Assembly (NCBI GenBank): GCA_903861145.1
Contig: CAIOTH010000017.1
Span: 1-32,243, forward strand
Direction of reading: 5' to 3'
Source: an uncultured Bacteroidota bacterium
Lineage (GTDB): Bacteria > Bacteroidota > Bacteroidia > Chitinophagales > LD1
DNA length: 32,243 nucleotides
The notes under the pieces: generated by a model
What the model was told of the DNA's origin: nothing
What the model saw: the letters and a program-made list of their open reading frames with translations, nothing else
Databases searched by the model: none
Position numbers and translations under genes: made by a program
Shown here: piece after piece, positions 1,792-32,243 of the stretch
Numbering within the stretch: the first letter of the stretch is position 1
Layout: the number at the start of each line of letters is the position of its first letter

Positions 1792-3426
1792 CTATTCAAC
1801 TACGAGTTTCTTAACCATACTCTCAGCAACGCGAACCAGGTAAATACCTTTAGCCAAACCAACGGTTTGCAATTGGAACCTGTTGCTTGTAATTTGTTGG
1901 CGCGAGATAGTTCTGCCAACAGCATTGGTTAATTCCAGCGTAGTGCCAACCAGGTTATCGTTAACGCATATTGTGGTGTAACCATGAGCAGGGTTTGGGT
2001 AAATTGCCAGGAAGTCTTCGGCAGCAGGAACCTCATCAACACCAACCGTTGATTGAGCACCGGTAGCTGTTTGCACCTTAACTACCCAAAAATCGCTGGC
2101 GCCGTGGTTACCAGTAACGTTACCGTCGGTTGATGATGTATAACCGACTTCCACAACGTTGGAGTCGGCAGTTTCAACCAGGTCATAGCCACCATCGTTA
2201 CCTGTTCCACCAAAAGCGTTTTGCCATGAAACCGGGGGATAGCCACTTGATTTAACCTCGTAAGTCCATAAGTCGAAAGTATTACCACTGGCATCGTGTT
2301 GACCACTGACTGTACCCGGATTATTTGAGTTTGATGCGCCGGTAGTAACCATGTGCCCGTTACGAAGTATGATTATGCTACGGCCAAATTCGTTTTTAGT
2401 ACCTCCATAGGTATTTTGCCAGTTCATGTTTCCGCCAGTCATATTTATTAACCAGTTATCGGCGGTACCGCTACTTCCTCCAAAATTTCCGCTTACGTTG
2501 TAATCATTAGCCTGGGTATATCCCTGCATAAAATAGGTACCGGTAGATGTTTGAACCACAGAGTAGGCTTCGCTGCCATTGGTACCACCCATGCATCCCT
2601 CCCATACAAGCGCGCCAACGCTGTCAACCTTCAAAGCCCAGTAATCAGGATTAGCAGTAGCCGGTATAAAGCTGCCACGGCTTACATCGCCATCCGTGCT
2701 GTACGAATCGCCAACAACAACAAAATCATCATCGCTGGTTTGAATTACGCATCTTGCGTCATCCTGTTTGGTACCACCAAAATTTTTCTGCCATTGAATA
2801 GTGCCGGATGAATTTAATTTTACAATCCATGCATCGGCCGTAGCACCGGTATTATCATGGTTACCGGCTACATCACTATCGTTTGAATAGGTATTTCCGG
2901 CAACAATATAACCACCGTCACGTGTTTGCTTTATTGACTGGGCATAATCGTTTTTGCTACCTCCCAAAGTTTTTTGCCATTGTATGGAACCGGAATTATC
3001 GATTTTGATAACCCAAAAATCAGCCGCACCACCTGCTGCACCATGCAAACCGCTAACATCACCATCGTTTGAATTGGTCCAACCCGCAATTACCGCACCG
3101 CCATCAGTAGTTGCGCAAATAGAATTTGCCTGATCGGTATGGGTTCCACCAAAGGCTTTTTGCCAAACCAGCGAGCCAGTGGCACTTACCTTAATAACCC
3201 AAACATCCGAAAAGTTACCTGAAGGATTGTGGTTACCGGTAACGTTACCATCATTAGAATAAGTAACACCTGCCACATAAAAACCGCCATCTGTAGTATT
3301 AGCAACGCTTCTTGCACTATCATTACCACTTCCGCCAAAACATTTTGCCCACTGCAAACTACCTGCCTGCGCCATGGTAGACAATGAAATTACAGCACTA
3401 ATAAAAACAAGGTACATCTTCTTCAT
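1792..3426 (-). CDS. Secreted seven-unit beta-propeller-like protein with T9SS type A sorting domain
   Basis: This 544-residue protein has a Sec signal peptide (about residues 1-21). Seven tandem units of about 55-65 residues follow, each with a GG(S/T)xxD/E...S(V/I) opening, a DGGxxxxGxTxSNDGxV core and a DxWxxK...G.(L/I).W(Q/E) strand. Seven such units suggest a closed seven-bladed propeller, which is an inference. The last 75 or so residues are a T9SS type A sorting domain, with the IYPNPA motif, a variable sheet and a GIYLVRV...KKLVVE ending. The product should cross the outer membrane and be released or anchored at the surface. No catalytic residues are recognisable, so binding or adhesion is likelier than catalysis. 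The next minus-strand gene starts 63 bp downstream. Confidence 0.88.
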   Translation of the reverse strand: MKKMYLVFISAVISLSTMAQAGSLQWAKCFGGSGNDSARSVANTTDGGFYVAGVTYSNDGNVTGNHNPSGNFSDVWVIKVSATGSLVWQKAFGGTHTDQANSICATTDGGAVIAGWTNSNDGDVSGLHGAAGGAADFWVIKIDNSGSIQWQKTLGGSKNDYAQSIKQTRDGGYIVAGNTYSNDSDVAGNHDNTGATADAWIVKLNSSGTIQWQKNFGGTKQDDARCVIQTSDDDFVVVGDSYSTDGDVSRGSFIPATANPDYWALKVDSVGALVWEGCMGGTNGSEAYSVVQTSTGTYFMQGYTQANDYNVSGNFGGSSGTADNWLINMTGGNMNWQNTYGGTKNEFGRSIIILRNGHMVTTGASNSNNPGTVSGQHDASGNTFDLWTYEVKSSGYPPVSWQNAFGGTGNDGGYDLVETADSNVVEVGYTSSTDGNVTGNHGASDFWVVKVQTATGAQSTVGVDEVPAAEDFLAIYPNPAHGYTTICVNDNLVGTTLELTNAVGRTISRQQITSNRFQLQTVGLAKGIYLVRVAESMVKKLVVE

Positions 3427-3549
3427 AGAAATATTTTATAATTAATAGGTAACGGGGCTAAAATAAAGAAAAGTTTGACAATGGGATGTTAATGTACGGT
3501 TGCGCTAATGTGCCAAAGGCAGTTTCGAAGAAATCATGCAAAATACCGG

Positions 3550-5154
3550 CTATTCAACCACAAGTCTTTTTATAATTGTATTATTATCACTCGACATAAC
3601 CTTAATCAAATACAAGCCATTGGCCCATGTATTTGTTTTAATTCGGAATTTTGACGCAATGATTTGTTGGCTTAAAATACTCCTGCCTATTGCGTCATTT
3701 ACTTCCAGCCAACCACTTACAAAATTATCGCCCACGCTTATCGTCGCAAAATCTTTAGCAGGATTTGGATAAACAGAAAACAGCGAAGGGTCAGTTTTCA
3801 ATACTCCGGTAGTTACCGGTGGTAAGCCGCAGCTATCAGGATTGTAGTTGCTGCACAATGTAAAAGTATCAATAGCAGGGCTACTATTAGTCACTACGCC
3901 TGAGTCTATAATGCATTTAACAGCAGTATGTGTAAAGTTGAGGTTAACAATACGTTTTAAAACCGGCAGGCAATGCAAACTGGTATCGTACATAGTTATA
4001 AAAGTATTCATGCTATCGGGCAGCACCGGTATTAACGATAACTGCATGTTAAAACCGCAATCGAGATAGGTTAAGTGACCCGGTAAATCAGGTAACGCCC
4101 CCAGTTGATTATCGTTGCAATACAGGCTTTGCAAACTTAATGGCAAAGCCGGTAGATTTGTAAGGCGATTATATCCGCAATTAAGCAGCTGTAACTGCCC
4201 GTGCAAGATTGGCAGAGCAGTTAGTAAATTAAAATTGCAAAGCAATGTTTGTAACGATTGAGGCAAGGCCGGCATAGAAGAAATGCTATTGATACCGCAG
4301 TTTAAATAAGTTAAGCCGGCTGGTAAAGCGGGCATAACCGTAAGGTGGTTTTGTTGGCAATACAGTTTTTGCAACGTGCCAGGCAAGGCAGGTATAGAAT
4401 CAATACCATTATTCGAACAGAACAAAGTTACCAGCCCCGACGGAAGCGTCGGCATACTCGTTAAAGCATTTGAACTGCAATTTAAATCGGTTAAAGCTGA
4501 AGGTAACGCCGGTAACGTAAACAACGAATCGCCGAAACAGGTTAAAGTTTGCAGTCCTGCCGGCAATGCGGGCAACGCATAAAGCACATTATAGGTGCAC
4601 GATAAATTTTGTAGCGAATTAGGCAATGCCGGCAGGCCGTTTAGGTAGTTAAAATCGCAAATTAAACTTTGCAGGGTAGAGGGCAACGCCGGCAAACTAT
4701 AAAATCCATTTTGCCCGCACGAGAATTGCTGCAGGTTGGGGGGCAACGCGCTAACCGACGATATAAAATTATTAGTACACACCAGGCTTTTTAAACCGGT
4801 TGGCAACGCGGGCATAATCGACATTTGGTTATTAGCGAAATTGAAACTGACTAACGATGCAGGCAGCTGAAAAGTTGTATAAAGCGAATCGCCGGAACAG
4901 GCAAGGGTTGCAAGATTTTTAAAATATTGAACTCCGGTAAGGTCATATATAGGGGCTCCATTACAATTGATAGTTGTTGTGGTTAAAACAGCGCTACAAG
5001 TTGTATCTAGTTGGTTGCCGTTAAGACAAGCAGCAAAACCATGTCCCTGCAGCCATGTAACAAAACCTGCATCAGGTATATTTACATATTGTGCCTTGCA
5101 GGGATTAAAAACAACCAAGCCAACTAACAAAAGCCCCAGGTATACCTTTTTCAT
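3550..5154 (-). CDS. Secreted LPX-type leucine-rich-repeat protein with T9SS type A sorting domain
   Basis: This 534-residue protein has a signal peptide (about residues 1-22) and a short N-cap region. Fifteen tandem 20/21-residue repeats follow (about residues 97-398) with consensus LPxxLxxLxCxxNxLxxLPA. This is the short bacterial LRR class seen in YopM, IpaH and SspH effectors. There is no E3-ligase domain after the repeats; instead the final 80 or so residues form a T9SS type A sorting domain (VYPNPAKDF...NGLYLIKV...KRLVVE). The protein should therefore be surface-exposed or secreted, probably binding a protein or glycan. Units 2-14 nearly all place Cys at the strand position where YopM-like repeats usually have a hydrophobic residue. 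The paralogous sorting domain and shared strand link it to the propeller protein downstream. Confidence 0.9.
   Translation of the reverse strand: MKKVYLGLLLVGLVVFNPCKAQYVNIPDAGFVTWLQGHGFAACLNGNQLDTTCSAVLTTTTINCNGAPIYDLTGVQYFKNLATLACSGDSLYTTFQLPASLVSFNFANNQMSIMPALPTGLKSLVCTNNFISSVSALPPNLQQFSCGQNGFYSLPALPSTLQSLICDFNYLNGLPALPNSLQNLSCTYNVLYALPALPAGLQTLTCFGDSLFTLPALPSALTDLNCSSNALTSMPTLPSGLVTLFCSNNGIDSIPALPGTLQKLYCQQNHLTVMPALPAGLTYLNCGINSISSMPALPQSLQTLLCNFNLLTALPILHGQLQLLNCGYNRLTNLPALPLSLQSLYCNDNQLGALPDLPGHLTYLDCGFNMQLSLIPVLPDSMNTFITMYDTSLHCLPVLKRIVNLNFTHTAVKCIIDSGVVTNSSPAIDTFTLCSNYNPDSCGLPPVTTGVLKTDPSLFSVYPNPAKDFATISVGDNFVSGWLEVNDAIGRSILSQQIIASKFRIKTNTWANGLYLIKVMSSDNNTIIKRLVVE
3961..4866 (-). repeat. 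Fifteen tandem ~60-nt units coding LPX leucine-rich repeats
   Basis: The coding repeats run at a regular 60-nt period (63 nt for the last two). On the plus strand the recurring words ggcaacgc/ggcaaagc and cagnntnngca mark successive units. Units differ at most third positions, so this is an old, diverged protein repeat rather than a fresh tandem duplication. Confidence 0.85.
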
Positions 5155-5828: not shown

Positions 5829-5895
5829 TCTTATTTCTTAGCCATTCTAGCACTTCATTAAAAAATTGTATATTCAAATTCAAATCCCCTGTTAT

Positions 5896-7167
5896 ATGCA
5901 AAAATTTTACACGCTTTTAATATTCGCTTTTGCAGCTGCAAGCTTAAACGCTCAAATTACCCAACCCTTACAACCAACAACCGGCCCGGGCTCTAACAAT
6001 TTGAATTATACCGGGGCTACTCTGTATGATTACGGCACCAACGCAAATGCCGATGGCTTTTGGTTGTTTGAACCAACCGGCCCAACGCCCGACTCGGCCA
6101 ACGTAGTTGTGTTTATACATGGCTGGGGCGAAACCAATCTTAAATTTTACGGAGCATTTATTGACCGTATTGTGCGTGCAGGCAACATTGTTATTTGCCC
6201 GCGCTACGAAAAAACTGTCGATACTGTTTATGGCACTTATACTGATAGTTGTGCGCGCGGAATACAACTGGCGCTCGAGGTTTTGCAAACTGCCGGCCAC
6301 GTAAAGCCGCGCCTGTATAATTACTTTGTGCTGGGCCATAGTATGGGTGGCGTGCTTACCGCAAACATGAGCACGCTTTATAACCACTACGGTTTGCCAA
6401 AACCGCTGGCAGCGTTTTCGATGGAGCCCGGCGCTAACATTACTGATCTGCTTTTGGCCAATTACGACGGATTTCCGGCTGATGTGAAATATTTGATTGC
6501 CATAGGCCATGATGACGCAATAGTTGATTCAACGGCGGGTAAAATTCTTTTTTACCAAACCACGGCGGTGCCCACCTCGCATAAAAATTTAGTGTGCCAG
6601 TATGCCGATAGCCACGGCACACCGGTCATAACTGCAACGCATTTCGAGCCGTGCTCGATAACCAGCAATAGTCTTTACGACGATGGCGAATCAAATATTG
6701 TAACGCTGGTAAGTAGTGGGGTACCGCCCGATGTTGTTGACTTTTATTGTTACTGGAAGTTATGGGATGCTCTTTACAGGTGCGCCCTTAGCGGCACTGA
6801 CTGCGACATTGCTTTTGGTGATACATACGCGCAAAAATATATGGGCACCTGGAGCGATAGCACACCAATCACTCCGTTGTATGTAATACCCAACGGACCA
6901 ACCGCTGTTAATGTGGTAAAGGAGGCCAACAGCGTAGCGATATTTCCTAACCCCGCCGGCCGCGGCAGCTTTGAGTTGAGTGTAATGAAGACCGAAGGCT
7001 CACCAGTGCTTGAGTTGTTTGATGTAAATGGTCGCCAAATAATGCAGCAACAAATTGTAGCGAATAATACAGCCATTAAACACCAACTTTCACCAGGTAT
7101 GTATTTTTACCAGGTGCAGAATACAGTTGATGGCGTTATTGCGAAAGGGAAACTGGTGGTGCAATAA
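5896..7167 (+). CDS. Secreted alpha/beta hydrolase with T9SS type A sorting domain
   Basis: A protein of 423 residues from the ATG at 5896. The start is chosen because the signal peptide MQKFYTLLIFAFAAASLNAQ begins there; an earlier in-frame start only adds a polar stretch. The alpha/beta-hydrolase core has VFIHGWGE (oxyanion loop), the nucleophile elbow GHSMGG with S149, GHDDAIVD with candidate acids D206/D207/D211, and SHGTPV with H240 as likely catalytic base. It resembles secreted lipase/esterase-type enzymes; the substrate cannot be read from sequence. The last 75 or so residues form a T9SS type A sorting domain (IFPNPAGRG...GMYFYQVQ...GKLVVQ). The gene diverges from the SRPBCC gene, with 114 bp between starts. 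Confidence 0.87.
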   Translation: MQKFYTLLIFAFAAASLNAQITQPLQPTTGPGSNNLNYTGATLYDYGTNANADGFWLFEPTGPTPDSANVVVFIHGWGETNLKFYGAFIDRIVRAGNIVICPRYEKTVDTVYGTYTDSCARGIQLALEVLQTAGHVKPRLYNYFVLGHSMGGVLTANMSTLYNHYGLPKPLAAFSMEPGANITDLLLANYDGFPADVKYLIAIGHDDAIVDSTAGKILFYQTTAVPTSHKNLVCQYADSHGTPVITATHFEPCSITSNSLYDDGESNIVTLVSSGVPPDVVDFYCYWKLWDALYRCALSGTDCDIAFGDTYAQKYMGTWSDSTPITPLYVIPNGPTAVNVVKEANSVAIFPNPAGRGSFELSVMKTEGSPVLELFDVNGRQIMQQQIVANNTAIKHQLSPGMYFYQVQNTVDGVIAKGKLVVQ

Positions 7168-13196: not shown

Positions 13197-15689
13197 TTAA
13201 TGGCAAGCTCCGGCTACGCAACTTTGTAAAGTAGGGCATTGAAAACCGCAACTACTACAGTTATGTGAATCGGTATTGATGTTAATTTCGCATCCATCTG
13301 AAGATATGTTGTTGCAGTTGGCAAAGCCAGCATTGCAAGATGCCACAGTGCAACTTCCTCCAGTACATCCTGCCGTTCCGTTGCTAACAAAACAAACGCG
13401 CCCACAACCGCCACAATTAGCTACGCTGTTGGCGGTATTGATCTCACAACCATCACCGGCAAAAGCATCGCAATCAGCAAAACCGGGATTGCAGGTGGCT
13501 ATAGAGCAACTTCCACCGGTGCAGCCTGCTGTGCCATTCGAAACAAAACAAACGTGCCCACAGCTACCACAGTTTGTTACTGTACTACCAACATTGGTTT
13601 CACAACCATCATTTGGGTTATTATTGCAGTCAGCAAAACCAACATTGCACTCAGCAATAGTGCAATTGCCAGCTGTACAACCTCCGGTTCCGTTGGCAAT
13701 AAAGCACTGGTGCCCGCATCCACCGCAATTGCTAGGGTCGTTCAAATTAACTTCGCAACCATCGGCTGCAATACGGTTACAATCAGCAAAGCCGGGGGCG
13801 CAGCCAAGCACAACACATCCGCCGGCTGAACAGCCCGCTACAGCGTTTGGCAGGCTACAAACCGCGCCACAGTTTCCGCAATTATTTGGGTCGCTCCCAA
13901 TATTGACTTCGCAACCGTTAGCTGGATTTCCATCACAATTTTGAAAGCCCTCGAAACAAATTAACTGGCAAAATCCGCTGCACCTGGCAAACGAGTTCGG
14001 CCCAAAAGGACAAACAGTACCACAGGTACCGCAGTTTAGGATATCTGTAATAGTATTTATCTCGCATCCATCAGCTGTAGCACGATCACAATCGGCAAAT
14101 CCTGCATTACAATTATTAATCACGCAACCGCCGCCAGTGCAGGCAGCAACTGCATTAGGGAAAGAACATACAGTGCCGCAACTTCCACAGTTAGCGGCGT
14201 CGCCATTTAAGTTTACCTCGCAACCATCGCTGGCAATACCGTTACAATCGGCAAAGCCCGTATTGCAACTTAAAATGGCGCACTGCCCGTTATTACAGGT
14301 TGGTGTGGCATTAGGTAAAGAACAAACATGGCCGCAGCTACCGCAATTATTTACATCGCTTCCAAAAATGGTGCATAATGTAGTAGCAACCCATTGTGTA
14401 CCATCCCACATTAATATTTGTCCGGCAGCACCTCCATTAGGCAAAGATGAACCTGAACCTGCAGGGCCTGTTGGTCCTGTTAAGCCTATGCCGTTATTAC
14501 CGGCAGGGCCTGTGGCTCCATTAGCGCCTGTAACACCAGCCGGGCCTATTGCCCCTGGTGCTCCATTAGTTCCATTATTGCCGGCAGGGCCTTGCAGGCC
14601 TGTTGCCCCTGGCGCACCATCATTTCCATTTGTTCCGTTATTTCCGGCCGGGCCTTGTGGACCTGTTGGGCCATTAGCCCCTGTAACACCCGGAGCTCCG
14701 TTGGCTCCATTAATTCCCGGGGCACCCTGGCTACCTTGCGCACCTGCAGGGCCTTGTGCACCTGCTGGGCCTGCTACACCCTGCGCACCCGCCGGACCTG
14801 CTGCTCCTGGCGCACCTTGCACACCGGCTGGACCTGCAACACCTTGCACTCCGGCCGGGCCCGCTGCCCCTGGTGTACCTTGTGGTCCTGCTGGTCCTGC
14901 AACCCCTTGAGCACCGGCAGGGCCTGCTGCACCTTGTGCTCCTGCAACACCTGCAGGGCCTTGAGCGCCTGTACTACCGGTTGCACCTTTAGCACCGGCA
15001 ACTCCCGCAGTTCCTTGTGGGCCTGTAGCACCTGCAACACCTGCCGCACCGGTAGAACCGGTGGCGCCTTTAGCACCTGCTGTGCCTGCAACACCTGCCG
15101 GGCCTGTAGCACCTGTTGCTCCTTTAGCGCCAGCTGCACCTGCAACACCTGTTGGACCTGTAGGGCCCGTTGCGCCAAAGGTTCCGTCGCAATTAGTTAC
15201 GTTAACGCTTTGGTTATCAATAGTAAGTGTATGTGTTTTGCAGTTCCACGAAATGTTATCATCGCTAAGCGTCTTTTCATTACCTGTGGCCAGTTCACCG
15301 GCTTTACCAGCATAAAACGCATACGGAACACTCAACAATTGCGAGGTTCCCATATCAGCAAATGAACCTTTATTGGTAATATCCATTTCAACCTGCAGGT
15401 ATTTTTCACCTAAAGCCCAGTTAACACCTTCAAGGCCTTTAGCATTGGCTCCTAATGATAGTGTAACAAGCCCAAACTGGTTGGTAGTAGCACTTTGCAA
15501 TTCGGTAAATACAACAGGGCCGTTGGCAGCCCCATCATGTATGGTAAAGCGCACGGCCACCTTACTATCGGCAACTACTTGCCCTGATAGGTTACGAACA
15601 ACAGCCTGGTAGTTAAAAGTATGCGGCGCTTGTGCACATAGCACGCCACAAAGCAACAACGCCTTTAAGACGAGTATTAGCTTTTTCAT
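13197..15689 (-). CDS. Collagen-like triplet plus Cys-rich repeat surface protein
   Basis: An 830-residue secreted protein in four parts: a signal peptide (about residues 1-20); a beta-rich N-terminal domain found in many Bacteroidota fibre-like proteins ([15 protein letters not shown]...FGLVTLSLG...KYLQVEMDI...[11 protein letters not shown], about residues 24-130); about 80 Gly-X-Y triplets rich in GPAG, GAQG and GATG (about residues 170-412); and eight Cys-rich units of about 50 residues (about residues 438-830) with pattern NCGxCGxxC...C...C...C...GFADCN...DGCEVN. The last resembles Cys repeats of myxobacterial surface proteins. There is no T9SS sorting domain or lipobox, and the protein ends in a partial Cys unit. 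It is likely a trimeric, disulfide-stabilised surface fibre; that is inference. A shorter paralogue lies upstream. Confidence 0.87.
14455..15180 (-). repeat. Collagen-like Gly-X-Y coding repeat (9-nt periodic)
   Basis: A run of about 240 residues of Gly-X-Y with higher-order units such as [13 protein letters not shown] and GATGSTG. It is strongly GC-rich compared with the neighbouring DNA, and near-identical 18- to 36-nt blocks recur, so length variation by slippage or recombination between blocks would be expected. The periodicity also opens long spurious frames on both strands. Confidence 0.9.
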
Positions 15690-15848: not shown

Positions 15849-16826
15849 TTATTGAGTATAAGTTATCAAAACCGTGTAAGGCTTATTGAGAATAGCTGAT
15901 GAATTAAGCAAAGTTGTTTTTAAAGTAAATACAGATGATACAAAGGAATATGTGTACTGTACCCCCAACAAGTTAAGCACTGGCGAAAGTAAACCGTTAA
16001 TAGGATCGCGTACCAAAACGTTAATGCCTAAAATCTTAGCGTCCGGAATCCAGGTGCTGAAGCTGGTTGAATCGCCGGCCGATGTAGGCGTTGTGCCGGT
16101 AAATTCTTTCATTTTTATTGCCGGGGCATCAATGCCGAACATTGAATACCCATTAACCGTAAGCGTAGCAGCCGGGGTACTCGTTTGTATGCCAACGTTG
16201 CCACTATTGCCATTGTAAATATCGTTACCGTTTTTTAACCAGATTGAATCGCCAGCGCTTTGCGGGCCGGTTGCACCGGTTACGCCCTCAACTCCCTGCG
16301 CACCGGTGGCACCGTTAAGGCCGGTGCTGCCGGCAATTCCCTGTGGACCTGTGGCACCGGTTGAGCCCGTTAAACCTTGCGAGCCAGTGGGTCCGGGTGG
16401 GCCAGGTAAATTATTGGCCGCAGCACCTGCATACAAAGCATAAGGAACACTCATTAACTGGGTGGTTCCCATATCTACGTAATTAATTCCCCCGGTCACA
16501 TCTAATTCAACTTCCAGGTATTTAAAACCCTCACCCCAGTTAATTCCCTGAAAACTACCTAGCATTACGGTGCCACCACCAATTACCACATTAATTAACC
16601 CAAACTGGTTTGGTATAACCGTATCGCGCTGAACATAAACTACCGTACCCAGGGCCGTGCTATCATGTATAGAAAACTGCATACTTACAGGCCTGTTTTG
16701 CACAATCTGCCCATTGCCGTTACGCACCACGGCCTGGTATGGAAAGCCTTGCGGTACCTGCGCAAATAAAGAAACCGAAACCTGCAAAACAATTGCAGAC
16801 AAAAGAAAGTGGCTTGCTCTTTTCAT
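15849..16826 (-). CDS. Short collagen-like protein, paralogue of the downstream gene
   Basis: A 325-residue secreted protein with a signal peptide (about residues 1-22). It has the same N-terminal domain as its neighbour ([17 protein letters not shown]...FGLINVVIG...[11 protein letters not shown], about residues 26-138), then only about 16 Gly-X-Y triplets ([13 protein letters not shown]..., about residues 142-190). The remaining 135 residues start with a [18 protein letters not shown] segment, as in tail-fibre-like Bacteroidota proteins, and end in a beta-rich domain I do not recognise. There is no sorting signal. It is probably a trimeric surface fibre with a different head from the Cys-rich paralogue; the two likely arose by duplication of the N-terminal and collagen parts. 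Confidence 0.82.
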
Positions 16827-19027: not shown

Positions 19028-20800
19028 GTGAAGGGGTGCATTTTCATTCTTCTTTGTCTTAGCAGTAATTTTTGTGTAGCGCAAATATTGCCGCCGTCAG
19101 GTGCTACACTTAATTACAATCAAATTATGTTTGAGCACCCCAAAATTGCCGGGGCCGATGAGTATCTTGTTGAGGTAGATGCTGGAGAGCCCGTTGGGTC
19201 ATATCATAAACCCTTCCACTTCTTTAAACGCGATTCTTCAACAGCAACCATACTTGGTAATTTTGAATTTGGAAGAACTTATGTTTGGCAATATAGCGGC
19301 ATCAAGAATGGTAAAGTGTTTGCCACCCACGGTGGGTACACCTTTAAAATTGCGAATAACGCTTATGCCGATGATAAAAATTACCGGGTACGATTACTCA
19401 TTAACGATTCGGCAGCCAATGCAGGGGGACTTATTACCTTAGATAATGAGCGTGTTATTATAGACCGCAATGGAAATTTTGTTTGGTTTATGCCGCAAGA
19501 TACAACGATGCGCGTTATAAAAAACAAGGCTGGCCTTCCCGATAATATGGTAAGCGATTTACGCGTTACACCACAGGGAACAATAACCGTGATTAACCAT
19601 TTTAGGGCACAGGAGTTGGACTTGAATGGCAAAATTCTTTGGGCTGTGCCAAAACAAGTAAAAAACGGTACCACAATTATTAATGGGAACCCGCTTTACA
19701 ACCATTGCTTCAAAAAACTGAGCACCGGCGATTACATGGTTATTGACGGTTTGCGTAGGCTTAAAAAAGTGGGCGGGTCCAACAGCACCGACACCCTTAA
19801 AACTACTGTAAACGACGAGATAATTGAAGAGTTTGACCATAGCGGAAATTTAGTTTGGAGTTGGAACTCTGCCAATTATTTCGACTCGTTGGAATGGACT
19901 GATATTGTGCAGCACAAAGCCGATTCAGGTATGCTTGACCCAACGCCAGGGGGACATATGAACGCGTTCGATGTTGACGAAAAAAATGGATTTGTGTATG
20001 CAAGCCTTCGCAATGTTAGCAGGTTGATTAAAATCGATAAGCAATCGGGCAAAGTAATTTGTAGTTGGGGTGAAAACATGAAATTTAACGGCAGCCCCAA
20101 CGCCAACGGTTTTTTTAGCAAGCAACATGAAACAACACTTTTGCGCGATGGAAACATTGCGGTGTATAATAATGATTTACGTCCGATTAACAACAATGGC
20201 ATTGGCCATCGGTCCTCAAGCGTTGTAATTTTTACGCAACCTTCTCAATCATCGAATAGTTCAATAGCGTGGAGCTTTGAGTGCCGTCTGGATTCAAATA
20301 ATAATTTGAGCAATCGTGGAGGCAGCGTTGACGAAATGAACAACGGAAACCTATTGGTAGGCATGGGCATGGTGAATAAAATTTTTGAAATAACCCTAGA
20401 CAAACGCATTGTTTGGAGCGCAGTAATTGAAAGAAGTAATCCGTACGATAATTCCTGGATGCCATGCCCCTCATTCAAAGTTCATTACGCATCATCTTTA
20501 TATCCATGTTACTTCACTGTTCAAACAACTACGGATACCTTGCCTCAAGGCACTCCATCCTTTTATTTGAAAATTTTTAATTGCGGAACCGAACCCGATG
20601 CTTACCTCATCAATATCACAAGTCCATCTGGTGATTACATGGAGCCCCATGCTACTACCTATTTAGCTCCGGGCAAGTCAACAAATTTTGCAGTTGTACC
20701 AAATAAAAAGATTGCGCCAAATAGCACGATTGAAATTTCAATTCAATCAAAAACCAATCCCGATTTTAAAAGAACCGTTTACGTATACTATACTATGTAA
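19028..20800 (+). CDS. Arylsulfotransferase (ASST family), exported
   Basis: A 590-residue protein starting with GTG at 19028; no ATG lies near, and a signal peptide (KGCIFILLCLSSNFCVAQ) follows at once. The middle is a beta-propeller of the arylsulfate sulfotransferase family, which moves sulfate from one phenolic ester to another phenol through a sulfo-histidine. The active-site pattern known from E. coli ASST can be matched: H226 (YNHCFKK), H310-x-N312 (GGHMNAF), R328 (SLRNVS) and H367 (KQHETTLLRDGNIAV), the last being the likely nucleophile. The H310 to R328 distance of 18 equals that of the E. coli enzyme. The last 90 or so residues form an extra beta domain without T9SS features. It should act in the periplasm. 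The substrate is unknown. Confidence 0.85.
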   Translation: MKGCIFILLCLSSNFCVAQILPPSGATLNYNQIMFEHPKIAGADEYLVEVDAGEPVGSYHKPFHFFKRDSSTATILGNFEFGRTYVWQYSGIKNGKVFATHGGYTFKIANNAYADDKNYRVRLLINDSAANAGGLITLDNERVIIDRNGNFVWFMPQDTTMRVIKNKAGLPDNMVSDLRVTPQGTITVINHFRAQELDLNGKILWAVPKQVKNGTTIINGNPLYNHCFKKLSTGDYMVIDGLRRLKKVGGSNSTDTLKTTVNDEIIEEFDHSGNLVWSWNSANYFDSLEWTDIVQHKADSGMLDPTPGGHMNAFDVDEKNGFVYASLRNVSRLIKIDKQSGKVICSWGENMKFNGSPNANGFFSKQHETTLLRDGNIAVYNNDLRPINNNGIGHRSSSVVIFTQPSQSSNSSIAWSFECRLDSNNNLSNRGGSVDEMNNGNLLVGMGMVNKIFEITLDKRIVWSAVIERSNPYDNSWMPCPSFKVHYASSLYPCYFTVQTTTDTLPQGTPSFYLKIFNCGTEPDAYLINITSPSGDYMEPHATTYLAPGKSTNFAVVPNKKIAPNSTIEISIQSKTNPDFKRTVYVYYTM

Positions 20801-24971: not shown

Positions 24972-27900
24972 ATGATAATGAGTAATCGGTTAAGAAATTT
25001 TGTTTCGGTTTTGGTTGCAATTGCTTTTGGGTTAGCCGCCAATTCGCAGTGTGCAATGTTGCCGGCTAGTACCATTTGTGGTGATATTAACCCCGGAGTT
25101 ACAGTAATTACACCCAGCCCGGCATGTTTTCAAAGTACTGTAATCATACATTTATCATCAGACATTCCGGTAGATTCCATTTGCCTGACATTTGGAGATG
25201 GGCATGACACCATCCTATTTAATCCTGATACGTCGTTTAACCTTACTCATAACTACAACTTCCCTCCTCCTGATGATTGCCCGGGCGGAGACCCATATCC
25301 CGGCATTCAATGTATTATTCAAGCCAATTTTTATAAGCATTGTCCAGGCAACGGATTTAGTTTTAACTTCAAATCAACCTCGTTATCGTTCAGATTTAAA
25401 CCACGCGCAAAATTTCCGTATCACAATGCAGTGCTTTGCGCAGGCAATTGCGTTACAGTGCCTTTAGATACTTCGTGCACTAACACTTATTGGCAAACAG
25501 ATTCAACCAGCTATACCTGGAGCTGGGGCGATACCAGCCAGCCTTATACGGTACTTCATACCCCGTTTAGCTTTTACCAAACACCACCGCACTGCTACAG
25601 TTCACCAGGTGTTTATGAAATAGTTCTTTCAGCCGAAAATGGTTGCGGCACCGAGGCAGATTCACTTAGACTTACGATACAGCAAATTGACACCGTTAGA
25701 ATTCCACAATTTGCACATTTGTGCACAGGAAACCCGGTGCCCGTTCACATCATCGGCGAAAACGCAAATTTTTATAGCACCTTTATTACACCGGGCTCGC
25801 CAAACGATACGGTAATTGGCTCTACCACAGCGACGCCTCAACTTATATTTTTTGTACCCGGCGTTTATACTGTTTACTTTTCATCGGGCGCATGCTTTGT
25901 TGATACTACCATAACTGTTGAAAGCGGAGCAGCTATGACGCATATCCCTTTTACCGACACCTGTTTTACCGGTAACAACCAGCTGGTTCTATCAAATTAC
26001 TATTCTACCCCTTCGGCTACACAAACAAATCATTTTAGCGTATTCGACTCAACCGGCCTAATTTACCAATACGATTCGGCCGGGGTGCCAAGTGCTGCTA
26101 TTAACTTGCTGCATGCGGGAAACTACATAGTAAAGGAAGTTTCCTCAAGCACATGTGACTCGTTGGTGCTTGCGCAAGATACGTTGACATTGTTTCCACC
26201 AACCAGTTTTCAGTTACCGGGAGATACGATGCTTTGCCTTCAATCGTTTTATATTCTGCCCACATTTGCGAACGTTATTATTTACCTGGATAGAGTGACA
26301 GTTGCCAGCGATACTGTTTATGTTGACTCGCTTAGGCAATATCAGTTTGTTTATACGCCATTGTGCGGAAATAGCAGAACATTAACAATAACAGCGAAGG
26401 GAACACCTGCACAAGGGCTGGATAGTTCATTTTGCGCTTCGCCAGGAATGATTGCCTTAACCGGTAGCCCGGCTGGTGGTACTTTTAATGGTTTGTTCAT
26501 TAATAACGGTCAATTAGATGGTAATTCTGCCGGGCCGGGTCACCATCCGTATACCTATACTTATAACGATGTGGCAGCCGGATGCATTTATATTGATACT
26601 TCTACTATTAATATTTACCCGGCAGTCGTAATTAATTATTCTTTAACCGATACTGTTTGCGCCGGAACAGCTGCAATTTTTGTTAACCAAGATGGCAGTC
26701 AGGTAAACGCGATAAATTTTGGAGATACAGCGGCCAACTTTAGCGGCAACCCAATTCAGCACATTTATAACCAATCGGGATTGCAGCACGCCACACTACA
26801 TATTACCGATACTTTAGGTTGTATGGTTACCATTGCTGATTCGGTGTTGGTCTTACCTCTTCCCATTGCTGACTTTATGTTACCTACCGCCGTGTGCGAC
26901 AGCACATCGGTTATACCTGTATTAACATCACCGGTGATAGGCACAAACACTTATGTATGGAACGTTGGCAATGATACCACATTTGCGCCTCCAACAATTT
27001 TGGTGCGCGATACACTTTACAATATTGTTTCGTATACCGTAAACGTAACGGTTACATCGCCACAATGCGGGGCGATAACTCAAAGCCATAGTATAATGGC
27101 TTTGGCCCAAACAAATGCAAATTTTGGCCTGGTGTACCAAGCCAATTGTAGCCCGATGCATCTTCAATTTGCGGATAATTCGCGGGGCGATAGTTTAACC
27201 TATTCGTGGTATTTAAACGACGTGCCATTTTCGAATGATAGTGTACCTGCGGCAAGATGGTTGACAGCAGATAGTGTTGATTCAGCATACAGATTTAAAT
27301 TAGTTGTGTGTTCGCCATCGTGTGGTTGCAGTACTTTTACAGATAGTGTTACTGTACACCCAGTAAACTTTGCAGTTTGTTTTCACCCGGATAGCTTTAG
27401 TGTTTGCCAGGGCAAGACCATGACATTTAAGGATTGTGGCAGAAGTTTTTGCAACCTGATTTACAATTTTGGTGACGGACAGGATACCATTACCGAAAGC
27501 GGGCAACAGGTTAGCCACTCATATGCTGAAGCGGGTACCTATACTGTTTGGTTGACTATGACATGCAATTGTATGACCGATTCGGCCTCGCAACAGGTGG
27601 TTATTAAGCCAAGCCCGCAGGTAAGCCCGGCAATCAGCAACGGTGATTGCACCGGCCATTTAGCCGATTTTAACGGGAACGTTATTTCAGGAAATCCGGT
27701 GACCTGGCAATGGAATTTTGGTGATGGTGGTTATAGCGGCTTGCAACACGCAACACATACTTACGGCATTGCAGGAATTTATAATGGCTGGGTGTTAGCC
27801 ACCGGTAGTAACTTTTGCGAATCGGACACTGCATTCTTTACCTTACCTGTAACGCAATCACCTAACTCAACTTTTGTTCACGATACCGCTGTGTGCCAGC

Positions 27901-28649
27901 GCACCTCGTTGCAAATAAATGTTGATTCACCAGCCTTAAACTCTACTTACATCTGGCACGTAGTAATTGGAAATGATAGCCAGCTCATTACCACTACCAA
28001 CGGCTCGCTTAATTTTAATACTGCCGATTCGGGTACCTATCACCTATCGCTTGAAACATTTAATAATGCGAACCCACTATGCGCTACTACTACCGGAAAT
28101 ATGCAGGTGGTAGTAATGCCGGCACCGGTTGCCCGTTTTACAGTTTTACCTTTCGAATCGGATATTAACTCGGACTTTGATTTTTATAACTACAGCACCA
28201 ACGCATTGTCTTACTGGTGGAGTTTTGGTAATGGCGATTCAAGTTACGCTGTTAATCCGGTATACAAATATGCGACCCCGGGTTTATACAATATCACCCT
28301 TGTTGCAATAAACGACCTATGTCGCGATACGGCAACCAACAAAATCCTGGTTAATCCTGCCTTGAATCTGTTTATACCTAATACTATCATAGCTAACGGG
28401 GATGGTTATAACGATAAGTTTCAGATATACGGGAACCTGGAAGCTATATATACGCTGGATGTAAAGATTTTTGACCGGACCGGGGAAAAGGTATATAGTA
28501 GCAACGATATATACTTTAAATGGGATGGCACATTCAAGGGTAAGCCCGTTGGGCCGGCTGTATTTGTTTATGAAATACTTGTAAACATAGTTGGGCAGGA
28601 AAACAGGCCACCAAGAATGTATAAGGGCAGTATTACTGTTTTAAGATAA
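24972..28649 (+). CDS. Large PKD-domain surface protein with T9SS type B (CHU_C) sorting domain
   Basis: A 1225-residue protein beginning MIMSNRLRNF; the second ATG at 24978 is equally possible. A signal peptide ends near residue 25. The body is a chain of beta-sandwich domains, several clearly of PKD type: YTWSWGDTSQPYTVL (about 180), LIYNFGDGQDTITES (about 830), WQWNFGDGGYSG (about 910) and YWWSFGNGDSSYAVN (about 1080), each followed by an (A/S)xPGxYxxxL strand. Cys pairs occur throughout. The last 100 residues are the gliding-motility-associated C-terminal domain (LFIPNTIIANGDGYNDKF...VKIFDRTGEKVY...KWDGTFKGKPVGPAVFVYEI). Type B cargo is exported by the T9SS and handled by a PorP/SprF-like partner, not seen here. 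An adhesin role is likely. Confidence 0.9.
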   Translation: MIMSNRLRNFVSVLVAIAFGLAANSQCAMLPASTICGDINPGVTVITPSPACFQSTVIIHLSSDIPVDSICLTFGDGHDTILFNPDTSFNLTHNYNFPPPDDCPGGDPYPGIQCIIQANFYKHCPGNGFSFNFKSTSLSFRFKPRAKFPYHNAVLCAGNCVTVPLDTSCTNTYWQTDSTSYTWSWGDTSQPYTVLHTPFSFYQTPPHCYSSPGVYEIVLSAENGCGTEADSLRLTIQQIDTVRIPQFAHLCTGNPVPVHIIGENANFYSTFITPGSPNDTVIGSTTATPQLIFFVPGVYTVYFSSGACFVDTTITVESGAAMTHIPFTDTCFTGNNQLVLSNYYSTPSATQTNHFSVFDSTGLIYQYDSAGVPSAAINLLHAGNYIVKEVSSSTCDSLVLAQDTLTLFPPTSFQLPGDTMLCLQSFYILPTFANVIIYLDRVTVASDTVYVDSLRQYQFVYTPLCGNSRTLTITAKGTPAQGLDSSFCASPGMIALTGSPAGGTFNGLFINNGQLDGNSAGPGHHPYTYTYNDVAAGCIYIDTSTINIYPAVVINYSLTDTVCAGTAAIFVNQDGSQVNAINFGDTAANFSGNPIQHIYNQSGLQHATLHITDTLGCMVTIADSVLVLPLPIADFMLPTAVCDSTSVIPVLTSPVIGTNTYVWNVGNDTTFAPPTILVRDTLYNIVSYTVNVTVTSPQCGAITQSHSIMALAQTNANFGLVYQANCSPMHLQFADNSRGDSLTYSWYLNDVPFSNDSVPAARWLTADSVDSAYRFKLVVCSPSCGCSTFTDSVTVHPVNFAVCFHPDSFSVCQGKTMTFKDCGRSFCNLIYNFGDGQDTITESGQQVSHSYAEAGTYTVWLTMTCNCMTDSASQQVVIKPSPQVSPAISNGDCTGHLADFNGNVISGNPVTWQWNFGDGGYSGLQHATHTYGIAGIYNGWVLATGSNFCESDTAFFTLPVTQSPNSTFVHDTAVCQRTSLQINVDSPALNSTYIWHVVIGNDSQLITTTNGSLNFNTADSGTYHLSLETFNNANPLCATTTGNMQVVVMPAPVARFTVLPFESDINSDFDFYNYSTNALSYWWSFGNGDSSYAVNPVYKYATPGLYNITLVAINDLCRDTATNKILVNPALNLFIPNTIIANGDGYNDKFQIYGNLEAIYTLDVKIFDRTGEKVYSSNDIYFKWDGTFKGKPVGPAVFVYEILVNIVGQENRPPRMYKGSITVLR

Positions 28650-28805: not shown

Positions 28806-31800
28806 ATGAAGAAGTTTTTACTATTCACCGCAGTAATATTTTTTGTACGATTTGCACAGGCAAGTAACCCAACCTGGTCTCAGGACGTTGCGCCGATTTT
28901 ATATGCACATTGTACATCCTACCACCATCCGGGTAGCATTGCGCCATTTTCTTTGCTCAGCTATAACGATGCATATACCCATGCCAGTTTAATGAATAAT
29001 GATCTTACGCAAGGAATTATGCCCCCATGGCCACCGGATACTACCTACAGCCGATTTTTACATGAACGCATATTAAGTGCAAGTGACAGAGCCATTATTG
29101 AACAGTGGGCGACCAGCGGCAAAGCAGAAGGCGATGTAACACTTGCTCCGTCGCAACCATCTTATCCATCGGGTTCGCAACTTGCATCTGTTAATTTATC
29201 TGTTCAAATACCAACGTATACGGTGAGCGGAACGGGCGATGTTTACAGGAATTTTCCTATTGCGACCAATTTATCGCAGGACATGTATGTAACTGCAATT
29301 GAGGTTTTGCCAGGCAATGCATCTATCGTTCACCATGTCCTGGTCTACCAGGATTCTACCACCCAACCGGCAACACTTGATGCCAATGACCCGGGGCCTG
29401 GTTACACGGATGCCGGCGGTACGGGTTCAAATGCTTCTATATTAATTAACGGATGGGCCCCGGGAGCGAGTCCTTATTATACACCTGTGGGAACCGGCTT
29501 TCGTTTACCGGCACATACCAATATAGTGGTGCAGGTACATTATCCAAACGGAACACAGGGGCAAATGGATAGCACCCGTATTAATTTTACATTAACCTCG
29601 GTTGCACAAAGAAATATATCGGTAGTTCCTATTCTGAATTACCTAAGCGATATGACCAATGGGCCTATTAATATTGCTGCGAATACCACTAAAACATATT
29701 ACGAGAAATATACTATCCCAATAAATGTTACTCTTCTGGGAGTTTTTCCACATATGCACCTTATAGGACGTAGCATAAAATCGTGGGCCAATTTGCCAAC
29801 TACAAACGATACTGTTCCGTTAGTCAATATTCCGAATTGGAATTTTCATTGGCAGGGCACCTACGTTTTTCAAAATGCGCTAAAAATACCAAGCGGAACA
29901 ACGGTTCAGGCGTCGGCGTTTTACGATAATACCAGCAATAATCCGTATAACCCCAACTTTCCCCCTCAAGCTGTCGTTGCCGGCACTGCCACGACCAATG
30001 AAATGATGCTTGTTTACTTTTCATACCTTCCTTATCAAAACGGTGATACAAATTTGATTATTGACCGCAGGGTATTGGCACAAGGAGCTACCGCCTTTTG
30101 CAGTGGCCAATCGGTTGCCCTGCAAACTATCATAGGTGCACGATATACCTATCAATGGTATAATAACGGAACCAGCATATCGGGAGCTACCGGTGCAACT
30201 TATGTGGCCACTCAACCCGGAAATTATTATGTACACATAGTACTAGGCCCTAACAACACCTACAGTGATACGATTGCCGTTAGTATTATTTCAACCATAC
30301 CCTCGGCTTCAGTAATTCCGGGTAGCGCAACCTTATGCTCGGGGCAGAATGTAACACTGAATGCTTCAACGGGTAATAATTATACCTACCAATGGTTTTT
30401 AGATACAGTACCTATTAGCGGGGCTAGTGCATCTTCATATTCCGCTACTTCTGCCGGAAATTATTCCGTTCAAGTATATAATGGATGTTATGCCAAATCC
30501 TCACAAGTGCCAGTCACGGTAGGTTCGGCGCCATCAGCAACTGTAACTCCCTCGGGAGCTACTTCTTTTTGCCAGGGAAATAACGTTACACTTAGCGCAC
30601 CAAGTGGCTTGACTTATAACTGGAGTAACGGTTTAACTACCCAAAGTATTAGCGTTACCCAAACCGGTAACTATACTGTTACTGTATCGAGCGGAGGCAA
30701 TTGCACAGCAGCCTCAACGGCAACCGCTATAACAGTAAATGCCGCCCCATCAGCTAGCATTAGTGACGGAGGAGCCACTACTTTTTGTGCGGGGCAAAAT
30801 GTAATACTATCGGCACCCGGTAATTTAAGTTATAGCTGGAGCAACAATGCCACTGCACAAAGCGTTACTGCCGTGCAAACCGGCAGTTACAAAGTGACGG
30901 TTACTGATGGCAATGGCTGTACGGCTGCATCATCGGCCGTGCAGGTAACTGTTAATCCTCTGCCGACGGCTTCGATTAGTGCGAATGGCGCTACCAGCTT
31001 TTGCGCAGGTGGGAGCGTAACCTTAACGGCTGCAGTGAATGCTTCATATCATTGGAGCAATAATGCCAGTACCCAATCAATTTCGGCTAATGGCGCAGGT
31101 GGTTATGCCGTTACCGTTACTGATGCCAATACATGTAGCAACACGGCAAGTACTACCATAACCGTTTATTCGCTGCCCGACACCACAGTAAGTGCTAACA
31201 AACCAACTACTATTTGCCCGGGCGATGCTGTAACTTTAACCGGTGCCGCGGGATTAAGTTACTCATGGAGCAACGGAGCAACTACGCAATCGGTATCTGT
31301 TTCAAACAGCAGCACTTTGACACTAACGGTAACCAATCAGCACTCGTGCACTGCAGTTTCATCGCCAATTTCAATAACAGTTAGTAACAATGCTACGGCA
31401 AGTATTACTCCTTCGGGCGCTACTTCATTCTGTGCAGGAAATTCGGTTGTTCTTATAGCCAGCACAGGTACTTCGTACAACTGGAGCAATGGCTCTACCG
31501 GTCAGTCAATAACAGTAACCGCAAGCGGAAGCTATACCGTTAGTGTTACGGTAAGCGGAAGCTGTACGGCTGTATCGAATGCTCAAGCAATAAATATTTT
31601 TCAAAACCCGGATACACCTTCTATTACTGCCGGTGGCGCAACAACTTTTTGTGCAGGTAACAATGTTTCACTTAGCGCGCCTGCGGGATACAGTTATATG
31701 TGGAGTATGAACGAAACAACACAACAGGTAACTGTAAGTGCGGGGGGTAACTATACACTTACCGTTACCGATGGTAATGGTTGTAGCGCGGCATCATCGG

Positions 31801-32243
31801 CTACTACAGTAACCGTAAACACTTTGCCGGTTGTATCTTTCAGCTTTTCCGATTCAACAGTGTGTAGCAATGCTGCTGCTCTATCCTTAAGCGGGGGACT
31901 ACCAACGGGCGGTACCTATTCGGGAACGGGTATTAGCGGCAATAGTTTTGTACCAGCGTTAGCAAGTTTGGGAGCAAATCTGATTACTTACACTTATACA
32001 GATAATAATGGTTGTGCAAATAGTGCCGCACAAAATATAACGGTTAGCAGTTGTTTGGGCATGGATAATATATTCCTTCAGGATATTATATGTATACCAA
32101 ATCCAAGCAACGGAAACTTTGAAGTTAACTGGTCAGAAGCGAACATTGAGGTTACCGATATTAAGGTGTTTGATTTGGCAGGAAAACTAATTTATGTTAG
32201 CCAACCAGGCCATGCACAAAAACAAAGTATTGCTTTGCAAAAC
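28806..32243 (+). CDS. Copper type II (PHM-like) monooxygenase fused to Ig-like repeats and T9SS tail, partial at window end
   Basis: The frame is open for 1146 codons to the window edge, without a stop. In order: signal peptide MKKFLLFTAVIFFVRFAQA; a cytochrome-c-like segment (WSQDVAPILYAHC...GSIAPFSLLSYNDA...IMPPWPPD, about 24-105); a copper type II ascorbate-dependent monooxygenase domain (about 140-410); eight Cys-containing Ig-like units of about 75 residues, consensus FCAGxxVxLxA...Y.WSN...QS..V...GxYxVTVTD..GC (about 425-1020); one different PKD-like unit; and the start of a T9SS type A domain (CIPNPSNGNFEV...IKVFDLAGKLIY). All copper ligands of the PHM family can be placed: H176/H177, H245 (VQVHYPNG), H316-M-H318 and M400 (NEMM). 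The haem motif is broken (C36-T-S-Y39-H40). Secreted oxidation of an extracellular substrate is inferred. Confidence 0.88.
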   Translation, partial: MKKFLLFTAVIFFVRFAQASNPTWSQDVAPILYAHCTSYHHPGSIAPFSLLSYNDAYTHASLMNNDLTQGIMPPWPPDTTYSRFLHERILSASDRAIIEQWATSGKAEGDVTLAPSQPSYPSGSQLASVNLSVQIPTYTVSGTGDVYRNFPIATNLSQDMYVTAIEVLPGNASIVHHVLVYQDSTTQPATLDANDPGPGYTDAGGTGSNASILINGWAPGASPYYTPVGTGFRLPAHTNIVVQVHYPNGTQGQMDSTRINFTLTSVAQRNISVVPILNYLSDMTNGPINIAANTTKTYYEKYTIPINVTLLGVFPHMHLIGRSIKSWANLPTTNDTVPLVNIPNWNFHWQGTYVFQNALKIPSGTTVQASAFYDNTSNNPYNPNFPPQAVVAGTATTNEMMLVYFSYLPYQNGDTNLIIDRRVLAQGATAFCSGQSVALQTIIGARYTYQWYNNGTSISGATGATYVATQPGNYYVHIVLGPNNTYSDTIAVSIISTIPSASVIPGSATLCSGQNVTLNASTGNNYTYQWFLDTVPISGASASSYSATSAGNYSVQVYNGCYAKSSQVPVTVGSAPSATVTPSGATSFCQGNNVTLSAPSGLTYNWSNGLTTQSISVTQTGNYTVTVSSGGNCTAASTATAITVNAAPSASISDGGATTFCAGQNVILSAPGNLSYSWSNNATAQSVTAVQTGSYKVTVTDGNGCTAASSAVQVTVNPLPTASISANGATSFCAGGSVTLTAAVNASYHWSNNASTQSISANGAGGYAVTVTDANTCSNTASTTITVYSLPDTTVSANKPTTICPGDAVTLTGAAGLSYSWSNGATTQSVSVSNSSTLTLTVTNQHSCTAVSSPISITVSNNATASITPSGATSFCAGNSVVLIASTGTSYNWSNGSTGQSITVTASGSYTVSVTVSGSCTAVSNAQAINIFQNPDTPSITAGGATTFCAGNNVSLSAPAGYSYMWSMNETTQQVTVSAGGNYTLTVTDGNGCSAASSATTVTVNTLPVVSFSFSDSTVCSNAAALSLSGGLPTGGTYSGTGISGNSFVPALASLGANLITYTYTDNNGCANSAAQNITVSSCLGMDNIFLQDIICIPNPSNGNFEVNWSEANIEVTDIKVFDLAGKLIYVSQPGHAQKQSIALQN
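30090..31850 (+). repeat. Eight tandem Ig-like coding units
   Basis: Units of about 210-240 nt coding for the FCxGxxVxL...YxWSN...GCxA pattern inside the copper monooxygenase gene. Units 3-8 are the most alike, units 1 and 2 are longer and more diverged, and the DNA differs widely between units. They probably form a stalk between the enzyme and the sorting domain. Confidence 0.8.

Follow-up and report, generated by a model that had tools for sequence, protein, structure and literature searches.

A PHM/DBH-fold copper monooxygenase family of Bacteroidota with a probable fused cytochrome c domain, and a member with an altered heme motif

The animal copper monooxygenases PHM (peptidylglycine hydroxylating monooxygenase), which completes hormones, and DBH (dopamine beta-monooxygenase), which produces noradrenaline, use ascorbate as reductant. 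The delivery of two electrons to their distant coppers, and the transfer between them, is a long-debated question. A gene related to these enzymes lies at the end of the window analysed here, which is the whole stretch of 32,243 nucleotides of contig CAIOTH010000017.1 (assembly GCA_903861145.1) from an uncultured Bacteroidota bacterium of the Chitinophagales. The favoured interpretation, held with some reserve, is that the gene codes for an exported monooxygenase with the PHM/DBH fold, from a Bacteroidota family whose fused amino terminal cytochrome c feeds electrons to the copper site CuH, the copy in the window being altered. A preliminary description made from the letters of the DNA had recognized the copper enzyme and its export signal, and overlooked the c-type-cytochrome-like domain ahead of the copper core (residues 21–115).

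The assignment of the gene to the PHM/DBH-type copper enzymes is right as far as sequence comparison and structure prediction can tell. The reading frame, its start at ATG 28806, the residue numbering and the ligands listed in the preliminary description (His176 and His177, His245 within QVHY, His316, His318 and Met400) were all correct. No stop codon is found between this ATG and the contig end at 32243, and the product has 1146 residues as far as the sequence goes. Pfam matches are Cu2_monoox_C with 25.2 bits (cut-off 23) and Cu2_monooxygen with 29.3 bits, just under the cut-off of 30. The 135 frames matched by blastp gave 115 family members once overlapping copies were removed, window included. 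The ligand is held at the six copper positions in 111, 112, 112, 110, 111 and 110 of the 115 rows, the remainder being mostly gaps (2 to 4 rows are gapped at any key column). Since these positions are near-invariant among the collected members, the complete ligand set of the window gene is, judged by conservation, not a chance pattern.

A phmmer search of the PDB with the window sequence by itself picks up PHM (E 0.0019) and DBH (E 0.0023), and an eight-row profile picks up DBH with E 1.4e-11 and PHM with E 1.4e-5. The AlphaFold2 model of 404 residues, computed with eight alignment rows, has a mean predicted local distance difference test score (pLDDT) of 64.3 and a predicted template modelling score of 0.64, the core being better predicted than the N-terminal hundred residues. 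Its core has the PHM/DBH fold that had been anticipated, far above other folds. The top Foldseek ranks are 31 PHM/DBH chains (E 5.8e-13 to 4.3e-10), followed by a match with E 8.3e-6, while VIA-align gives Z 16.6–19.9 over 232–269 residues for 26 PHM/DBH entries and Z 8.8 for the best other entry. The copper ligands are expected to cluster in the core because their motifs align with those of PHM/DBH and the fold is common. The earlier term "copper oxidase" is thus kept for the copper and dropped for the oxidase, since the family is one of monooxygenases. The features of the gene are as follows.

28806..32243, plus strand: whole gene, 1146 codons, open frame from ATG 28806, incomplete at the 3' end where the contig stops
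28806..28865, plus strand: putative signal peptide MKKFLLFTAVIFFVRFAQAS, recognized by eye (basic start, hydrophobic stretch, AQA-S)
28866..29150, plus strand: c-type-cytochrome-like domain, residues 21–115 (Cytochrome_CBB3 and Haem_bd matches in relatives, weak heme-c structure matches)
28911..28925, plus strand: altered heme motif CTSYH, residues 36–40, with the Tyr codon TAC at 28920–28922
29019..29021, plus strand: Met72 in MPPW, putative sixth heme ligand (Met in 112/112 members with a letter)
29184..30047, plus strand: PHM/DBH-type two-copper core (structural alignment of model residues ~107–394, plus Pfam)
29331..29336, plus strand: His176-His177, CuH ligands (His in 111/113 and 112/113 members with a letter)
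29538..29540, plus strand: His245, CuH ligand in QVHY, aligned with QVHY of PHM (His in 112/112)
29751..29759, plus strand: His316-Met-His318, CuM ligands (His in 110/111 and 111/111)
30003..30005, plus strand: Met400, CuM ligand (Met in 110/111)
30087..32096, plus strand: stalk of eight Ig/PKD-like repeats (Pfam PKD/PKD-like, pattern count) and a divergent ninth unit (by eye)
32097..32243, plus strand: truncated sorting tail of type A of the type IX secretion system (T9SS), with partial PF18962 and TIGR04183 matches

Residues 21–115 resemble a small c-type cytochrome with a helix, the heme motif and a later MPPW. In alignment A2 (eight rows) seven rows match Cytochrome_CBB3 (PF13442; best E 1.5e-5) and seven match Haem_bd (PF14376) at E ≤ 1; at that threshold the window row has no cytochrome family match. 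The six copper ligands, CxxCH and the Met occur jointly in 105 of the 108 members lettered at all ten positions, the window copy being among the three exceptions. The domain modelled alone forms three helices (pLDDT 73.5). Several observations weigh against a cytochrome function. The Pfam cytochrome or heme matches of the paralogues in the same genome reach 17.0, 14.3 and 13.3 bits against a curated cut-off of 27, and the best match of the A2 profile among PDB sequences has only E 0.06. With the domain alone, Foldseek returned no match at E ≤ 0.001, and VIA gave Z ≥ 2 for 6 of 404 chains, all six heme-c proteins with weak scores (2.0–3.1). As no clear structural library match was obtained for the isolated domain, the case for a cytochrome is one of sequence, made mainly by the conservation of CxxCH and Met, and is weak outside the motif. 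The low confidence of this domain in the whole model precludes a distance between heme domain and CuH. Finally, no ResB (PF05140) turned up in the genome, and the heme synthase assignment therefore depends on a single Cytochrom_C_asm protein within an 847-amino-acid frame which, by its size, looks like a fused CcsBA-like synthase.

Of the 115 members, 111 have Cys at the second heme position, three have a gap and the window copy has Tyr. The window motif CTSYH differs by one base (TAC for TGC) from CTSCH. To our knowledge no natural heme c with a CxxYH motif is known, although no dedicated search was made. Because the second heme cysteine is replaced by Tyr, covalent heme attachment should fail in this copy: probably the covalent heme was lost or the base is a sequencing error. 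The first cysteine (Cys36), His40 and Met72 are retained. Over the 17 domain columns conserved in at least 85% of the other members, the window deviates at the second Cys only. The absence of any other such alteration, the single-base difference and the lack of Tyr at this position in any other collected member make a sequencing or assembly error (TGC read as TAC) a credible if tentative explanation, in which case the protein would be a normal member and its heme motif intact. It is opposed by a frame that is open throughout and by the lack of further signs of poor sequence here. The genus sample is composed of 18 genomes, that of the window included, with one per species, and it therefore provides no second genome of the window's species in which to compare the codon.

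If the base is genuine, the domain may be a heme-free remnant kept for folding, in an enzyme served by a soluble reductant as ascorbate serves PHM/DBH; this too is a real possibility that we hold short of probable. It accommodates the lost heme cysteine and the raised ratio of the cytochrome tip branch to the copper-core branch, which is 1.98 in the window while the median is 0.93 (fifth among the 73 tips whose copper-core branch exceeds 0.1, in trees of 108 of the 115 members). It also agrees with the strictness of CcsBA: of the CXXCH peptides with a changed cysteine, the one with homocysteine as first Cys was alone in receiving heme, according to an excerpt of PMC8112865; by analogy, CTSYH should not be matured. 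Against a heme-free remnant, the presumed axial ligands His40 and Met72 are intact, as expected if heme is bound or its loss is recent, and four members with an intact CxxCH have higher branch ratios than the window. General decay is thus not demonstrated. Over 29 domain columns conserved at 70% or more, the window deviates at 5, the median of the others being 3 with 26 of 111 at 5 or more. Decay of the domain was considered on these two measures and is mild at most; the branch ratio and the column departures leave some relaxed constraint possible, a point to set against the favoured interpretation. A cytochrome with non-covalent (b-type) heme or a single thioether, held via His40, Met72 and Cys36, is unlikely, even though all three residues are retained and a variant of cytochrome c552 with two Ala is described as a b-type cytochrome in an excerpt of PMC4451467. 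The CcsBA result speaks against it, since apart from the homocysteine peptide no Cys variant received heme (same excerpt of PMC8112865).

The features that follow the copper core point to display outside the cell, as the preliminary description had proposed. The eight Ig-like units counted there were borne out by the repeat pattern, with a ninth divergent unit added by eye. Its T9SS type A tail is present, although truncated and under the curated cut-offs: PF18962 (Por_Secre_tail) scores 22.7 bits (cut-off 27) over residues 1098–1145 and profile positions 3–51 of 75, and NCBIfam TIGR04183 scores 16.1 bits (cut-off 23). Both the gene 3' end and the tail are incomplete because the contig stops at 32243. 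By eye, long-stalked relatives end in a tail of this type, and 4 of the 5 other Cu2_monoox_C proteins of the genome carry one over the cut-off. The association of a copper enzyme with a T9SS tail, from which an extracellular oxidase had been proposed earlier, is real and not singular, for a home-made profile finds such a tail in 88 of the 109 members whose end lies inside their stretch (109 of 115, including fragment L117 and both pieces of the stop-broken L093). The genome also codes for GldL (232 bits, cut-off 68), the only T9SS core protein tested. Tail and GldL support surface display, and export of the window enzyme is likely on this evidence.

Family matches (E ≤ 1e-10) were found in 65 of 119 kin genomes, that of the window included in both figures. 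Across the phylum, Cu2_monoox_C (E ≤ 0.001) was found in at least 29 of 296 genomes, the window's included, a lower bound as genome G048 matches in the kin search and not there. The window's genome has six Cu2_monoox_C matches: the window gene, L001, L005, L006, L003 and L004. L001 and L005 carry CxxCH; L006 carries CxxCH, has no tail and is lipoprotein-like by eye. The distant paralogues L003 (1210–2871) and L004 (1210–2853), which blastp did not match and which are therefore outside the 115 members, have an N-terminal domain with the widened motifs CX4CH and CX3CH, respectively, and TIGR03806 (diheme cytochrome) matches far under the cut-off. The window gene belongs to a clade of nine long members (793–1260 amino acids as open frames; Shimodaira–Hasegawa-like approximate likelihood ratio test support 89.4) whose stalks have 3 to 9 repeats by pattern. 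Eight of them, window included, come from the window's genus and the ninth (G085) from another family of the same order. Judged from those of its relatives that bear names, the organism probably belongs close to Flavipsychrobacter within the Chitinophagales. No neighbour family is common to more than two of these nine loci. An apparent member of 678 amino acids (L055) was dropped after reading as it was linked via Ig repeats only. Note that tandem pairs of family genes are frequent (L058–L064, L042, L115), with three in a row in L115, and that in the alignment L113 and L116 have lost part of the copper ligand set (KG in place of HH in L113; R, Q and L as substitutes in L116) but keep CxxCH. 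Among plasmids a single weak match (Nonomuraea) was obtained, to query residues 109–382, thus without the cytochrome part. Among the literature matches listed, no title or abstract start deals with a bacterial cytochrome c–PHM fusion or its T9SS export, which is weak evidence of absence as subscription journals are mostly uncovered.

One branch of the family has an additional partner. In 27 of the 115 members, all outside the window's clade, an exported thioredoxin-fold protein is encoded at most 400 bases away on the same strand; 60 loci have mostly about 1 kb of flank and the linkage may be undercounted. Most of these redoxins have CPxC or CPxS and most a VGCFI-like end. Of two tested with Pfam, one matched AhpC-TSA/Redoxin and the other Redoxin under the cut-off. 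Five downstream Bcp-like peroxiredoxins (L027, L058, L059, L065, L066) that matched the redoxin profile were removed, which lowered the count from 32 to 27. Redoxin-linked loci include L058, L059, L088, L097, L107–L112, L118, L119, L123, L124 and others. In 20 genomes picked for holding the pair, each of the 22 redoxin copies found at E ≤ 1e-15 precedes a family match on its own strand by 63–355 bases between match edges, a figure that reports the lack of stray copies there and not a linkage frequency. Among members whose end lies inside their stretch, 13 of 26 redoxin-linked ones have a T9SS-type tail versus 75 of 83 others. The single redoxin copy found in the window's genome lies upstream of the L006 gene at a distance of ~2.4 kb, and two oppositely oriented genes separate them. 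One guess is that the redoxin keeps the heme cysteines reduced, as ResA does, or delivers copper in the manner of Sco.

In the favoured scheme of a monooxygenase with its own cytochrome, Sec export would come first and the CxxCH cysteines of normal members would then receive heme from the CcsBA-like synthase. The heme would hand electrons to CuH, replacing ascorbate, and CuM would activate O2 for hydroxylation of the substrate. T9SS would place the enzyme on the surface, in the window copy on a long Ig-like stalk. The window enzyme would be heme-free, or hold its heme loosely, and use another reductant, unless the base is an error. PHM-like chemistry is likely. A glycine-extended peptide is an unlikely substrate: Arg240 and Asn316 of PHM, which we take to be the residues that hold the peptide carboxylate, are missing, with Arg in 0 of 111 members at alignment column 294 (Phe in the window) and Asn in 1 of 111 at column 382 (Leu in the window). 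These absent anchor residues led to the rejection of peptide amidation as the principal interpretation. A true peptidylglycine hydroxylase amidating peptides would agree with the PHM fold and ligands and is nevertheless very improbable, as the profile favours DBH over PHM (single-sequence and structure comparisons score both alike) and no lyase family is among the 12 families listed for the window protein.

A wider proposal, to which we give slightly less than an even chance, is a class of PHM-fold monooxygenases wired to their own heme at the surface or outside the cell, with a dedicated maturing redoxin in one branch and a window copy that works without covalent heme. If correct, the fusion of core and cytochrome, which is common within a single bacterial order, would place an electron donor that can be followed by spectroscopy in the same polypeptide as the core, and the natural copy that has lost a heme cysteine would serve as a ready control. 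Exported copper oxygenation in Bacteroidota is suggested, with the linked redoxin named as partner.

The gene upstream (24972–28649) codes for a protein of 1225 amino acids with PKD repeats and a T9SS tail of type B (CHU_C). Three more T9SS type A cargo genes are found at 1792–5154 and 5866–7167; leucine-rich repeats occur in one of them, and another weakly matches alpha/beta hydrolases. The minus strand codes for two collagen-repeat proteins (13197–15689 and 15849–16826), and an arylsulfotransferase-like protein (PF05935, 77 bits) is encoded at 19028–20800.

The window protein can be compared with four known systems. It shares with T9SS type A cargo (PF18962/TIGR04183) the tail type and the Ig/PKD-like stalk, its own tail being cut and under the curated cut-offs. 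Its relatives have, as monoheme c-type cytochromes (PF13442, PF14376), a CxxCH that follows the first helix and, further on, a Met in MPPW, whereas the window row lacks the second Cys and matches no cytochrome family, and the relatives score low. Rat PHM (1phm, 1opm) has the same two-domain beta-sandwich core, the ligand order HH-H-HxH-M and QVHY. It differs by an identity of 17–19% in structural alignments and by its Arg240 and Asn316, without equivalents in the window protein; the latter adds the cytochrome-like domain, the stalk and the T9SS tail, and its copper core is devoid of Cys. By comparison, DBH has disulfides in both copper domains (excerpt of PMC4846438). Human DBH (4zel) shares the core and is the best profile match (E 1.4e-11). 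It is also modular, with an extra N-terminal domain that is DOMON in DBH (same excerpt); DOMON is absent from the list of families of the window protein, which has a cytochrome-c-like domain in its place.

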